A stretch of 64,000 bases of DNA from Pseudomonas baltica (lineage in GTDB: Bacteria; Pseudomonadota; Gammaproteobacteria; Pseudomonadales; Pseudomonadaceae): positions 3,498,501-3,562,500 of the forward strand of contig NZ_CP134771.1 in the NCBI RefSeq assembly GCF_031880315.1, written 5' to 3'. A program made the translations under genes and the position numbers. How positions within the stretch are numbered: position 1 is the first letter of the stretch; the number at the start of each line of letters is the position of its first letter. The notes beneath the pieces were generated by a model, which saw only the letters and a list, made by a program, of their open reading frames with translations, did not search any database and was not told where the DNA came from. Positions 12,949 through 62,135 of the stretch are shown in pieces.

Positions 12949-13028
12949 GGAAACGCCGGGAATTTCTCGGCTGTTGCAACCTTCTTCCCTGCCCAGTATC
13001 GTTCAGGCGTCGCTGCCACTCAGCGACC

Positions 13029-13242
13029 GGGTTTGGCGACCCGACGAATTCAAGGCGCAGCAGCGCCCCATCACGATTGCAGGCGCTTTTTTTGCGCCCG
13101 CATGTCCTGTTATGGCGGCTGTGCGTGGGAGACCTTCGGGTCTGCCGGTTTCCTTGATTCCCGGTTCGCCAACCCGCGTACAGCTGCCACCCTTATCGTT
13201 TGGCGACGATGAAGGCAGCTCCTCGAATCAAGGAGTTTAATA
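13029..13242 (+). promoter_or_regulatory. Structured 5' leader of the DUF3077 gene, candidate riboregulator
   Basis: Several pairings can be read. Arm A (13029-13055) is complementary to arm B (13152-13175, CCTTGATTCCCGGTTCGCC). Arm B's TCCTTGATTC (13151-13160) is also exactly complementary to GAATCAAGGA at 13225-13234, which contains the AAGGAG ribosome site of the next gene. A 12-bp helix with G-U pairs joins 13114-13125 to 13177-13188 and encloses a UUCG-capped hairpin at 13130-13143. GGCGC-TTTTTTT-GCGCC adds a small hairpin at 13082-13097. TTTGGCGAC occurs in arm A and again at 13199-13207. The layout suggests exclusive ON and OFF folds. No known riboswitch class was recognised. Confidence 0.65.
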
Positions 13243-13539
13243 ATGAACAGCATTCTTCAGTCCTCCAACAGTACTACCGGTGCAGCGACGTTCGGCGTCT
13301 GTAATTCCCGGAATGAGCGGCTTTTTCGTATCACCCCTGGAATCTGCGCAGAGCACGCGCTTGAGCATGCCTCGCTGCTGATGGCTTCAGCTAACAAACT
13401 GACGTTGTTGAGTGCACTGCAAGCGGACGATGATGGGGCAATGGTGTGGGCTGCTCATTATCTGGGGGATATGGCCAAAGCGATCATCGATGATGTGACG
13501 GCTGGACTGCAGGATGTGCAGGCAGGTTCTGCGTCCTAG
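13243..13539 (+). CDS. DUF3077 family protein
   Basis: The product has 98 residues and an excellent ribosome site (AAGGAG seven bases before ATG). It matches the DUF3077 pattern of short Pseudomonas proteins: LFRITPGICAEHALEHASLLM, then a helical region ending GDMAKAIIDDVTAGL. No enzymatic motif or signal peptide is visible; it looks like a small helical cytoplasmic protein. The function is unknown. The gene has its own long structured leader and is followed by about 125 bp holding a CGGCCGGCCGGCCG palindrome (13563-13576) and no gene. Confidence 0.75.
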   Translation: MNSILQSSNSTTGAATFGVCNSRNERLFRITPGICAEHALEHASLLMASANKLTLLSALQADDDGAMVWAAHYLGDMAKAIIDDVTAGLQDVQAGSAS

Positions 13540-13664: not shown

Positions 13665-14753
13665 TTATAAGCGTTCAGGCAGCGTATTCTTGGAGTTCAG
13701 CCCCGGCTCATCGCGTAGCAATTTAGTGCGCCATGCGGGTATTGAACTATCGTCGACGTCGAGGCGTTTCAGCCATTGATCTGCGGACCAGCCGACTAGT
13801 CGCAATTCGCCGTCGTGGCTGCCGCTATGCAACGACCCTACGGTCTCACAGCGGATAGGTTTGAGCAGATGATTGACCAATACATAGGCCGCAGGTTTTG
13901 GGTCTTCGGCATCGCCAGCAGCATAGGGATAGGCGCCCGATTGAATAATGACTCCGTCATTACAGCGATAGAATGCGTAATGACTAGAGGGTAGTTGAGA
14001 GCGAAGGATATCGAGGCCTCCGGCCAATTCCAGGCGTTGGTTGTCAAGCAGCGTTAGCCAGCTTACCGTCTTTATCTTAGGTTGTTTCGCGGTCGGTTCG
14101 ATCGTAAGCCAAGACGCAGTACCAACATCCAGGCCGGGCATGCGGGCGGCCATGAAAGCCTCGGTTGGTTCATTCTCATCCTTCTGAGTGATCGAAAGAT
14201 TGAAAGCATTTCCAGCGTAACCCTGCTCTGGATTCAAGCGCTGTGCGAACGCACGAAAGAGCTTTAAGAAACTCAGTGGATTCTGATCATGAAATAACAC
14301 AGGAACTGAGAATTCCAACACGCTGACGTCATCGCCCATCTTTGCCTGCCACGCGCGTTGCCCCATGATACTGAATAGCCAAGGGCTGGCATCTTTGGAT
14401 TGCTTTCCACTCGTGTAGAAGAAACTTAGTAGATCGTCTTCATCCAAAGACTCCATCATCTCGCGCAACGAAGCTGCATTTGAATACGGAATAACGGGTT
14501 TGCCCTTGGGAGGCTCTTCGCGCAATAACCATGTTAGATGAGGTTCCGCTACCATCTTGAAATCATCAAAGCATTTGCACAATGCCTCGCGAACCAGTGA
14601 GGTGTGAGCCTCCTTGAAATAAAGCGTTCCGCGTACTGAAGCGACGGCGCCAATGTAGTTTTGTGGCCCTCCCTTCATCAAAAGATTACCGGGCACCTCT
14701 AGCAAATGAGGTTGTTTGGTCAGCGCCGCTGCCAAATCGAAAGATTGGTCCAT
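13665..14753 (-). CDS. DUF3396 type VI immunity family protein
   Basis: The product has 362 residues without signal or membrane segment. It follows the putative VRR-NUC effector by 13 bp on the same strand. The sequence matches the DUF3396 family, annotated as type VI immunity proteins, with blocks GAVASVRGTLYFKEAH, SPWLFSIMGQRAW and VLEFSVPVLFHD. By analogy with TseV-TsiV pairs it should bind and block the nuclease in the cytoplasm, protecting kin. Base composition is less GC-rich than the flanking housekeeping genes, as is common for such modules. Cognate binding is inferred from position. Confidence 0.8.
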   Translation of the reverse strand: MDQSFDLAAALTKQPHLLEVPGNLLMKGGPQNYIGAVASVRGTLYFKEAHTSLVREALCKCFDDFKMVAEPHLTWLLREEPPKGKPVIPYSNAASLREMMESLDEDDLLSFFYTSGKQSKDASPWLFSIMGQRAWQAKMGDDVSVLEFSVPVLFHDQNPLSFLKLFRAFAQRLNPEQGYAGNAFNLSITQKDENEPTEAFMAARMPGLDVGTASWLTIEPTAKQPKIKTVSWLTLLDNQRLELAGGLDILRSQLPSSHYAFYRCNDGVIIQSGAYPYAAGDAEDPKPAAYVLVNHLLKPIRCETVGSLHSGSHDGELRLVGWSADQWLKRLDVDDSSIPAWRTKLLRDEPGLNSKNTLPERL

Positions 14754-14766
14754 TATGTGCTCTCTT

Positions 14767-15468
14767 CTAATAGGCAGGGGTGGGCAGCATTGGGCGAGGC
14801 GTGCGGCCTCGGGTCAAAAAAAACATAGTCAGAGTGGCGATACTGGCAGCCCATCCCAACTGTTCGGCAGGTATCCGCGTGGACTGAGTTTCTTGAGTAC
14901 AGTCGCACTCTGTAGAGCTCATACTAACGACTCGATTTGCTCCAGCAATCTGTTTGTATGCTCTCACCTGATCTGGGTTCGGTGGGTCGGGAGGAAACTT
15001 CATTTCGACCAACACCTGGATATTATTCTGAGCAGGCGGGATCATTGGGTCTTTAACAATCACCACATCAGGCCGACGAATCATCCCTCTACCAGGCTTG
15101 AAAGGAGGATGCTCCGGATCCTCATCCCAATACTTTTTGATCCACCCCGGAATCCAGCCATGCGGATTGCCTCCGGTCTGGCTGTCCATTATCGGCTGCG
15201 GTGGATTCTTGGTCATGTCGTAGCTAACCTCAGCTTTATACGGACTGCGCCCCTGCAGTATCTCATCCAGCTCCCCCAATCGCTGCGCGACACAAGCCTG
15301 CTTGAGACTCCTGCCATCCCGACTGACATTTGGTGTAGCACTGCAATAACAGATCGCCGAGCACAGCACTTTCTTGTCTTGCGGATCGAGTTTGGGCTCC
15401 AGAATCCCGACAGGATTGATCTGACCATCCGATTTCATACCTCCCTGGGACAGCGACGGCTCACTCAT
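14767..15468 (-). CDS. VRR-NUC domain nuclease, putative type VI effector (TseV-like)
   Basis: The product has 233 residues. A Cys-rich N-terminal part (CSAICYC at 36-42) precedes a VRR-NUC/PD-(D/E)xK nuclease core: D134 in RRPDVVIV, E155 and K157 in VLVEMKF, then DQVRAYKQI (166-174). A hydrophobic stretch (204-219) and a Pro-rich tail end the protein. VRR-NUC proteins next to PAAR genes and DUF3396 immunity genes are the TseV class of antibacterial DNases. The ORF overlaps the PAAR gene by 8 bp, so translation is coupled. Secretion is inferred from that linkage. Confidence 0.8.
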   Translation of the reverse strand: MSEPSLSQGGMKSDGQINPVGILEPKLDPQDKKVLCSAICYCSATPNVSRDGRSLKQACVAQRLGELDEILQGRSPYKAEVSYDMTKNPPQPIMDSQTGGNPHGWIPGWIKKYWDEDPEHPPFKPGRGMIRRPDVVIVKDPMIPPAQNNIQVLVEMKFPPDPPNPDQVRAYKQIAGANRVVSMSSTECDCTQETQSTRIPAEQLGWAASIATLTMFFLTRGRTPRPMLPTPAY

Positions 15469-15985
15469 TACCGTCCTCCTGCTCCAGATCGATATGCAGT
15501 GTTTGTGGCGAGTTACTTCTAACCCAGCGGGTCATCCCTTGGGCATCGGTATAGTCGTAAAAGCTTTTGCCATCGCTGGACCAGACTTTGACCAAGCGGC
15601 GTGCCACTGGCTTGCCGGTGTTCTGGTCGATCAACTGGAACCGCCCCGAATAAGAGGTGACCGCGTTGGTGCGCATGGGCTGGACAGGTGTGACGGGCGC
15701 GGGGATATGGGTGTCACCGATGATCACTGTGCTTGAACCCGCGGTTACTGCGTTGCCATGTTCCCCCACGCTACCTTGCGTGGCGGCCCGCATGCCGTTG
15801 ATGAATACGGTGGATGACAGGCCGGAAACGATGCGGCTGCCGCAGGCGCTCCTATCGTTTTCGCGGGCGGCGTTCAGTCCGTCGAATATGACATCTGGCG
15901 AGCCGGAGACAAGGGGGTTTTCGCCGTGCCCCGATTGCGGGCAGGCGGTTGGATCTGTGATGCGTGCAGCGGGTTTTCCACTCAT
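15461..15985 (-). CDS. PAAR-domain type VI spike-tip protein with C-terminal Ig-like extension
   Basis: The product has 174 residues from the ATG at 15985 (AAGGA eight bases upstream). Residues 1-95 are a PAAR domain (SGKPAARITDPTACPQSGH, SGSPDVIFDGLNAAR, GSSTVIIGDTHIPAP) that caps the VgrG spike and carries effectors. Residues 105-174 form a small beta-rich extension (FQLIDQNTGKPVARRLVKVW) that probably docks the effector. It is paralogous, over its whole length, to the PAAR protein at 61611-62135 in the main cluster. It heads the operon PAAR, nuclease, immunity. Confidence 0.88.
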   Translation of the reverse strand: MSGKPAARITDPTACPQSGHGENPLVSGSPDVIFDGLNAARENDRSACGSRIVSGLSSTVFINGMRAATQGSVGEHGNAVTAGSSTVIIGDTHIPAPVTPVQPMRTNAVTSYSGRFQLIDQNTGKPVARRLVKVWSSDGKSFYDYTDAQGMTRWVRSNSPQTLHIDLEQEDGNE

Positions 15986-16196
15986 GATGCGAATCCTTGC
16001 AAACAGGTACATGAGTATTCAGTGAGCAGCCGAATACCCTGAAATCCGGGGGTGAGACATCCTGAATTAGGGCCGGCGACATACTAATAGGGGCAATCAA
16101 TCCTGGTAAACCACGGATGTCCACTCGCAACTTCCTGCAATATTTTAGTGTTGCAGAGGTCCCTGAGAATCCTTTAACTGGGCGTTTTTCCGACCA

Positions 16197-48333: not shown

Positions 48334-48481
48334 TTTCGAGTGGGCACAATTTTATTGCAGGCACCCGTGAACGCGTCACCATCAATGACAGCCCCGGCGT
48401 GACGCATCTATGTCGCAAGTAAAAAGCGGCGAATGGCCAGTAGTTAGCGCTATGCTTGCCGGGATTTCAGAGGAGTGGTTG

Positions 48482-61610: not shown

Positions 61611-62135
61611 ATGGCCGGTAAACCCGCCGCACGCGTCACCGATCCCACTGCCTGCCCGAAGACCGGGCATGGCACCAATCCGATCGCCTCGGGTTCGCCG
61701 GACACGTTCTTCGACGGCCTGCCAGCGGCGCGCCTTAACGATCCCAGCGCCTGCGGCGGCAAGATCGTCAGCGGCGTGTCGTCGACCGTGTTCATCAACG
61801 GTATGAACGCCGCCACCGTCGGTTCGGTGGGCGACCATGGCAACACCGTGACCAGTGGGTCGGGCACCGTGATCATCGGCGATACCCACATCCCGGCGCC
61901 GGTCACTCCGGTGTCGCCGATGCAGACCAACGCCCCGTTCGACGACCACTTCGCCGTGATCTGCCAAGCCACCGGCGCGCCCCTGGCCGGAGTGCCATAC
62001 ACCGTGCAACTGGCCAACGGCACGCAATTGACCGGCATCACCGATGACGCCGGCAAGACCCGCAAGATCACCAGCTCGACCGCCGATGCGGTGACCCTGG
62101 TGGTTCCTGAGCAGACCGAAGTCGTTATCGGCTGA
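61611..62135 (+). CDS. PAAR-domain spike-tip protein of the type VI cluster
   Basis: The product has 174 residues. PAAR domain at 1-95 (AGKPAARVTDPTACPKTGHG, SGSPDTFFDGLPAARLND, VNSGTVIIGDTHIPAP-like) and a beta-rich extension at 105-174 (FAVICQATGAPLAGVPYTVQL) reminiscent of a small Ig/transthyretin fold. It closely parallels the PAAR protein at 15461-15985. It probably recruits the DUF6402 protein encoded 54 bp downstream. Confidence 0.9.
   Translation: MAGKPAARVTDPTACPKTGHGTNPIASGSPDTFFDGLPAARLNDPSACGGKIVSGVSSTVFINGMNAATVGSVGDHGNTVTSGSGTVIIGDTHIPAPVTPVSPMQTNAPFDDHFAVICQATGAPLAGVPYTVQLANGTQLTGITDDAGKTRKITSSTADAVTLVVPEQTEVVIG

Follow-up and report, generated by a model that had tools for sequence, protein, structure and literature searches.

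The DUF3077 gene and its surroundings

The window, the whole stretch of 64,000 nucleotides of Pseudomonas baltica DNA that was analysed, contains a gene for a 98-residue protein at 13243..13539 (+). The protein matches DUF3077 (PF11275) at 70.9 bits, against a cut-off of 21, and PHROG families 36471 and 6327, both annotated as being of unknown function. Comparison with the PDB by sequence gave nothing convincing (best E 0.17), and NCBIfam returned nothing for the sequences tried. On one side the gene is flanked by a PAS-GGDEF-EAL gene and on the other by a convergent gene encoding TsiV, a protein of the T6SS immunity type. A T6SS-type set adjoins the cassette at 13665-16012 (-), made up of a PAAR protein, a VRR-NUC-like protein, whose match of 21.2 bits is below the cut-off of 23.8, and the TsiV immunity protein.

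The 3' part of the EAL gene is matched over its full range in 22 of 24 same-genus relatives among the matches listed, and none of the listed alignments extends into the cassette. In five such loci that were read further with blastn the EAL part alone matched, and a loose C4 pattern gave a single match there (L287), situated before the EAL match, with none after it. These comparisons indicate that the cassette is accessory at this place.

Elements of the leader

The region upstream of the gene, all elements of which lie on the plus strand, is dominated by a match to the C4 antisense RNA family (Rfam RF01695) at 13108..13194. It covers the full length of the model (positions 1-87) and scores 90.9 bits, against a cut-off of 45, with E = 9.3e-17 on the window. 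The Rfam alignment places within it a stem of 17 bp (13113-13129/13173-13189), a UUCG hairpin (13130-13143) and a second hairpin (13144-13165). Naming follows that used for phage P1, in which b' is the 12-nt hairpin loop, here TTTCCTTGATTC at 13149..13160, and a' is the 7-nt single strand TCGCCAA, here at 13166..13172. The predicted C4 fold has an energy of -45.9 kcal/mol, which corresponds to z = -6.4 relative to 200 dinucleotide-shuffled sequences.

Complements of a' and b' are found on both sides of the C4 sequence. Sixty nucleotides before it lies a match to the c4-a1b1 target region (RF03163; 12996..13047, 48.9 bits, cut-off 46.7). The a1 element, TTGGCGA (13033..13039), is the exact 7-nt complement of a' and sits in the loop of the hairpin CGGG-TTTGGCGA-CCCG (13028-13043), while b1, GAATTCAAGG (13046..13055), complements b' with one extra T, the longest exact run being 6 nt. 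Directly after C4, a2 (13200..13206), again TTGGCGA and again an exact 7-nt complement of a', is held in the hairpin ATCG...CGAT (13195-13210). It is followed by b2, GAATCAAGGA (13225..13234), which complements 13151-13160 of b' exactly over 10 nt and overlaps five of the six bases of the Shine-Dalgarno sequence AAGGAG (13230-13235); the ATG of the DUF3077 gene is at 13243. A local hairpin, AGCTCCT/AGGAGTT (13217..13237), is predicted to cover the Shine-Dalgarno sequence as well, with a z of only -0.9 for this stretch.

Two further elements would define the transcript. A promoter-like site, TTGCAA - 17 nt - TATCGT (12974..13002), agrees with the consensus at 8 of 12 bases, and a start would be expected near 13009, upstream of position 13160, beyond which a start would have left the preliminary description of this leader without its switch. 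A promoter scan at 9 or more of 12 consensus bases listed nothing in the leader, since this site has only eight. Sites with at least 8 of 12 were present in 20 of 133 leaders with a located a1, compared with 7.2 expected by shuffling, and in 16 of these 20 the -10 element lies 30-34 nt before a1. Upstream of C4, a terminator-like hairpin, GCGCC (13063-13067)/GGCGC (13082-13086), is followed by seven T residues (13087-13093), so that 13063..13093 resembles by sequence the 3' end of IsrK. The hairpin has a loop of 14 nt and was not listed by a terminator scan using loops of 3-8 nt. Terminator-like sites were found in 22 of 146 leaders (3.2 in mononucleotide shuffles), and 13009-13093 in the window matches isrK (RF01394) at 41.0 bits, below the cut-off of 50.

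The preliminary description, made from the letters alone, had proposed mutually exclusive pairings that are able to hide the ribosome site, and these are real. Its arm A (13029-13055) corresponds to a1 and b1, its arm B (13152-13175) to b' and a', and its Shine-Dalgarno partner to b2; a2 is missing from it. Arms A and B do pair, over 22 bp with several small bulges and mismatches (-29.0 kcal/mol), and the UUCG hairpin was correctly placed. The perfect complementarity of TCCTTGATTC and GAATCAAGGA stands, but arm B had been begun one base late, TCCTTGATTC being 13151-13160. Similarly, the 12-bp helix 13114-13125/13177-13188 pairs as described but is the middle of the 17-bp stem. The preliminary description did not recognise a known class, but the leader has the two Rfam matches. 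Both are over their curated cut-offs and in the correct order, and they support a C4 switch. The reading favoured here, to which we assign a probability of about 0.86, is that the DUF3077 gene is under translational control by an antisense RNA switch of the C4 type.

Pairing is maintained as the leaders diverge

The covariation in homologous leaders that the preliminary description had proposed to look for is present. The set consisted of 46 related leaders (44 distinct) from four genomes, picked only by a b' loop length of 12 nt. In the a'-a2 helix 92.8% of cells are paired and six of seven pairs show double changes; in the main b'-b2 helix the values are 62.7% and nine of nine, despite a ragged alignment. 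Pooled, 75.9% of cells in the two helices are paired, compared with 59.1% in shuffles, and this falls to 31-46% when the partners are slid by 1-3 columns. Cells changed on both sides number 157 (64.0 in shuffles) and the covariation score is 0.506 (0.221 in shuffles); for none of these three measures did any of 500 shuffles reach the observed value. Two cruder measures show no clear excess: 15 pairs have at least one double change (14.6 in shuffles, 274 of 500 of which reach the observed value), and there are 49 further pair types (44.9 in shuffles, 43 of 500). The C4 scaffold itself is paired in 97.2% of cells in the 44 distinct leaders, and 18 of its 27 pairs are double-changed, compared with 5.8 in shuffles.

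Two orthologous DUF3077 leaders (G005 L132 and G049 L062) are identical at 435 of 467 columns, and a1, a' and a2 change together between them, from CTGAGAA to CTGATAA in the targets. In other pairs of leaders b1, b' and b2 differ wholesale, with much of the flank retained. Such coordinated change argues for selection on pairing. All the elements and their complementarity are present, and their change is correlated across paralogues and orthologues. A duplex-energy matrix of the 11 C4s of the window genome ranks the a1b1 of the window as the best upstream partner of the window C4, and its a2b2 as only the fourth-best downstream partner. In our opinion this matrix is noisy because conserved hairpin arms pair with one another, and exact-run tests were used instead.

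Recognition sequences in four genomes

The exact-run tests covered 146 C4s: all 11 of the window genome, 39 of 42 in G005, 41 of 42 in G019 and 55 of 55 in G049. Three C4s of G005 and one of G019 that are below the Rfam cut-off were left out, and all of G049 were kept, including three below it. The recognition sequences, or keys, were taken from the best-looking hairpin, and those of at least one locus of the window genome (L026) are misplaced. An exact run of 6 or more nucleotides with a' was found directly after C4 in 128 of the 146 and upstream in 133; in 114 the ribosome site offers such a run to b'. Both downstream halves pair in 104 of 146 cognate combinations and in 14 of 6202 non-cognate ones; in the remaining 42 loci the cognate set lacks one or both halves at a run of 6. 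For each of the four sites the cognate mean exceeded all 20,000 permutations in every set, namely the window genome, G049, G049 over the cut-off, and the 28 top-scoring loci from other genomes. As for local hairpins like the one predicted over the ribosome site in the window, a Shine-Dalgarno-like motif is present in 101 of the 146 leaders, and in 56 it is matched by at least four complementary bases, compared with 14 when the upstream bases are shuffled.

Within one genome no two C4s share both a' and b', barring one adjacent pair in G005 (L151), in which the truncated copy is without b2 and gene start. Proteins at least 90% identical (85% of the longer aligned) share both keys in none of 54 within-genome pairs and in 10 of 57 between-genome pairs (Fisher P 0.0013, for pairs that are not independent), and b' is shared by none of the 54. 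Under a rule of 85% of the shorter protein the figures are 1 of 61 and 13 of 64, the one being the L151 pair. Tandem DUF6124 copies in G019, whose proteins are 96.6-98.3% identical, differ in b'. The keys, then, change faster than the genes. Near-identical DUF6124 clusters in which each gene has its own C4 were noted at L171 (G019:C1:1820100-1828100) and L187 in G019 and at L151 in G005; keys differ throughout the first two, and in the third two of three share keys, one of them truncated. In a further genome (G006) three DUF3077 copies near-equal in Pfam score (L281, L282 and L284) have leaders with different a and b keys. A separate search with a C4 pattern found a C4 in three of five loci.

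A second sample was defined by an identical 37-nt C4 scaffold, which occurs at 80 loci or more; 62 were parsed and 18 unparsed ones left out. Among the 62, a2 matches in 59, b2 in 38 and both in 37, and there are 33 different key pairs. Upstream sequence was available for 59, of which 58 match at a1 and 32 at b1. One member, L299, comes from a record titled Pantoea sp. Ap-967, the scaffold being otherwise listed for Pseudomonas; either the genome is misnamed or there has been transfer.

The keys may also avoid one another. At runs of 6 or more, 14 non-cognate pairs match in both halves, where label permutation predicts 26 (P about 0.005). Each of nine pairs of thresholds gave fewer matches than expected, but P was below 0.05 for only four of them. 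Within-genome cross-targeting is about half of expectation in a threshold-dependent manner, and this depletion is suggestive only. Joint similarity among the C4s themselves is not depleted (14 against 10.4 expected). In the window genome the two-part pattern TTGGCGA-N6-34-AATCAAGG occurs four times, at the C4 itself (reverse strand), at its own a2b2 and at two places antisense inside long open reading frames; thus no extra ribosome-site target of the window C4 was found at that stringency.

Genes that follow C4 RNAs

A recognised gene follows 142 of the 146 C4s: DUF6124 in 96, DUF3077 in 19, an unnamed family in 19, Bro-N in six and a short peptide in two, a classification that is partly circular because its profiles were built from the open reading frames themselves, Pfam having been run on representatives only. 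The four copies with no recognised gene behind them (L027 of the window genome; L112, L113 and L115 of G049) may be decayed. Comparison of profiles shows DUF3077 to be related to DUF6124 (probability 95.8, E 8e-9). Members of the unnamed family that were tried (F5; for example L070, L073, L074 and L102) have no match in Pfam, PHROG or NCBIfam, and the Bro-N representative matches PHROG anti-repressor (Ant) families.

Several DUF3077 genes (for example L018 and L020 of the window genome, L064 and L105 of G049, L131 of G005) are preceded by a leader peptide of 31-38 residues whose stop overlaps the start of the gene. This overlap resembles that of icd and ant1 in P1, although the gene in the window is without such a peptide. 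A comparison of these peptides with P1 Icd, of which they might have been relatives, gave no hit. In an evolved furfural-tolerant strain of P. putida, a gained base reopens the DUF3077 pseudogene PP_RS01475 (PMC9630843).

Distribution, and the question of phage immunity

C4 RNAs are widespread in the genus. They were found in 45 of 50 Pseudomonas genomes, that of the window included (44 over the cut-off), with 841 matches in total, a median of 13.5 and a maximum of 54; DUF3077 is present in 38 of the 50. The window genome has 11 C4s and nine DUF3077 matches; a1b1 is matched 11 times with E no higher than 0.001, four of these matches being over the cut-off. Among 274 genomes of the class, again with that of the window, at least 18 contain C4, the other 17 of 273 holding at least 30 in all and at most six each. 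Up to 69 candidates were scored per genome for the genus and up to 15 for the class, so the class counts are lower bounds. Weinberg (2010) reports c4 from Proteobacteria and phages and c4-a1b1 from gamma-Proteobacteria and phages (PMC2864571). Searches with the window protein found no orthologues in GTDB contigs, no match in phage records and, among plasmids, a single Pseudomonas putida record. That record, a 19-kb plasmid (NZ_CP043577.1), carries a DUF3077 gene and part of a C4 leader.

The leader also occurs on mobile elements. It matches 34 Pseudomonas phage records, the best two over 63% of its length at about 82% identity, and 31 plasmid records match it in part. The C4 pattern was parsed in 77 of 78 stretches from viral contigs, and the 41 distinct viral-contig C4s precede a short peptide (15), DUF3077 (11), DUF6124 (10), the unnamed family (1) or none of these (4). 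The chromosomal C4s could conceivably form a bank of immunity, silencing incoming phages that have the same a2 and b2 targets, with the downstream gene secondary. An immunity role has been proposed in A. baumannii (PMC5320573), and one viral target, L222, is a good match for the window C4, with runs of 7 and 9. When the keys of chromosomal C4s were compared with the 41 distinct viral targets, however, they were not enriched: in five sets the number of matches did not leave the range given by shuffling b' 30 times, with 3, 12, 14, 16 and 17 observed against shuffled means of 4.0, 9.7, 11.3, 16.1 and 19.9, respectively. Moreover, 142 of 146 C4s directly precede a gene from a few small families. 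We regard the immunity bank as improbable, at perhaps one chance in ten.

Relationship to P1 and IsrK

The C4 class has been known since the work on P1 and P7, for which the bench evidence is summarised in PMC12197685 and PMC5320573. The present comparison of order and spacing is based on the record of P1 (NC_005856), where the immI elements follow one another as a1 (48255), b1 (48269), C4 (48343-48419), a2 (48423), b2 (48452-48459), icd (48470) and ant1 (48688). The order in the window is the same and the spacing similar; in P1, a2 comes 3 nt after C4 and b2 ends 10 nt before the start of icd. In both, a' occupies the corresponding unpaired strand, and b' the loop of the corresponding hairpin. 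Judged by sequence, the window therefore has the features of the P1 system that were compared: a full-length C4 score, an upstream a1b1 family match, complementarity at a1/b1 and a2/b2, and a b2 that lies over the Shine-Dalgarno sequence. The gene differs. P1 C4 controls icd-ant, which encodes an antirepressor, whereas the leader analysed here precedes a single chromosomal DUF3077 gene, with no icd/ant operon (a feature of the phage operon rather than of the RNA family), and its product has no significant similarity to Icd. Some other Pseudomonas C4s do precede Bro-N proteins, the family whose representative matches PHROG anti-repressor families.

A second likeness is to IsrK-orf45-anrP of Salmonella Gifsy-1, where a short upstream RNA with a terminator, read-through into a complementary leader and a hidden ribosome-binding site are described (PMC4825925). 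There, translation is coupled to the next gene; the DUF3077 locus is without a coupled second gene, and its isrK match is sub-threshold. In Burkholderia cenocepacia, RNA-seq detected an 81-nt isrK RNA with terminator and a 90-nt C4 RNA within one transcription unit (PMC4603805). The CI RNA of P4, with seqA and seqC, is likewise antisense and processed, and it has complementary sites both upstream and downstream, one of each (PMC4825925); this likeness is drawn from its description, and CI acts on transcription termination, whereas the downstream site in the window is a ribosome site.

Many C4-like RNAs are expressed in Acinetobacter baumannii and look to be processed by RNase P (PMC5320573). 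The Group 1 small RNAs of that species resemble the Pseudomonas C4s in their number per chromosome and in their variable recognition loops. Their targets, in the available text of that paper, are only proposed, whereas for the C4s read in four Pseudomonas genomes the matches lie in the flanks of each C4 itself, ahead of DUF6124, DUF3077 and other small genes.

Proposed mechanism

Under the proposed C4 switch, a transcript starting near 13009 would carry a1b1 and would either stop at the IsrK-like terminator, at about 13093, or read through C4 into the gene. C4 would be excised from the read-through transcript, presumably by RNase P, as reported for P1 and P7 and suggested for A. baumannii (PMC5320573). 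Once freed, it could use a' to pair with a2 and b' to pair with b2, and translation would be blocked because b2 overlaps the Shine-Dalgarno sequence. The a1b1 region, which bears both motifs, would compete for C4, such that the block might be lifted by a sudden rise in transcription or by the short RNA ending at the terminator.

Least certain among these steps is the part played by a1b1: in the IsrK system the cis pairing of IsrK and orf45 yields an inactive form, and activation comes from the short RNA encoded upstream, acting in trans (PMC4825925). For the same reason the preliminary description's assignment of the A-B fold as the one that leaves the ribosome site free is uncertain. Pairing by the a1b1 arm is weaker at b1, which carries an extra base, and only 32 of 55 loci in G049 have b1 runs of at least 6. 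Also weighing against the switch are the low rank of the window a2b2 in the energy matrix, the presence of terminator-like sites in only 22 of 146 leaders, and the 42 of 146 loci without runs of 6 in both downstream halves. In addition, the local hairpin at the ribosome site may hide the Shine-Dalgarno sequence without C4, in which case C4 might not be required in trans for repression.

This last point bears on a purely cis-acting switch, such as a riboswitch, thermometer or attenuator, in which arm B would alternate between arm A and the Shine-Dalgarno sequence in response to a ligand or temperature. The A-B and B-Shine-Dalgarno pairings do exclude each other, the matching sites recur across leaders, and in Salmonella the cis structure of IsrK alone already gives an inactive mRNA (PMC4825925). 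Arm B is, however, no simple switch arm: it consists of the exposed a' and b' recognition loops of a separately folded 87-nt RNA, whose compact and strongly conserved fold matches a known processed antisense RNA. A variable recognition sequence on a constant scaffold, with 33 key pairs on one identical 37-nt scaffold, is the reverse of what would be expected of a ligand riboswitch. The leader matched none of the riboswitch or thermometer families in Rfam. Of the three guesses in the preliminary description, an antisense-responsive leader has held, and nothing found points to a ligand or temperature sensor; a cis-acting switch of this kind seems to us very unlikely.

It is equally hard to credit that the leader is a decayed prophage remnant without present function, for although C4 is a phage regulator and the leader is absent from the same place in five EAL loci of other Pseudomonas genomes, the window copy has the top score among the C4 matches listed for the 50 genus genomes, keeps a1, a', a2, b' and b2 exact, with only b1 carrying an extra base, and belongs to leaders whose coordinated change argues for selection on pairing.

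Known and new aspects

The presence of many C4-like RNAs in one bacterial chromosome is already known, from the 2016 study of A. baumannii (PMC5320573). In the open-licence PMC literature no paper was found linking C4 with DUF3077 or DUF6124, or on C4 amplification in Pseudomonas; almost nothing was found on DUF3077, and no paper naming DUF6124. To judge from their flanking sites, most C4 RNAs in the Pseudomonas genomes read appear to be keyed to their own neighbouring gene, and the idea that the cell holds the products of DUF3077 and DUF6124 silent is thereby opened to test.

The evidence tips slightly towards a broader view, in which C4 switches operate side by side, by the tens, in many Pseudomonas chromosomes. 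Each would use private a' and b' keys to silence one small gene (DUF6124, DUF3077, a member of the unnamed family or a Bro-N protein), with new copies quickly changing all their matching sites together and cross-talk being selected against. If this is true, few natural sets of mutually orthogonal antisense regulators within a single cell would be larger, and the C4s would derive from the immunity leaders of phages or be shared with them. The C4 sets would offer natural orthogonal RNA switches.

The window also contains two matches to another small RNA, Pseudomonas P10 (RF01668, cut-off 37). One lies at 61634-61707 (+) and scores 62.6 bits; the other, at 15891-15962 (-) with 46.4 bits, is within the 5' part of the open reading frame for the PAAR protein (15461-16012, -).
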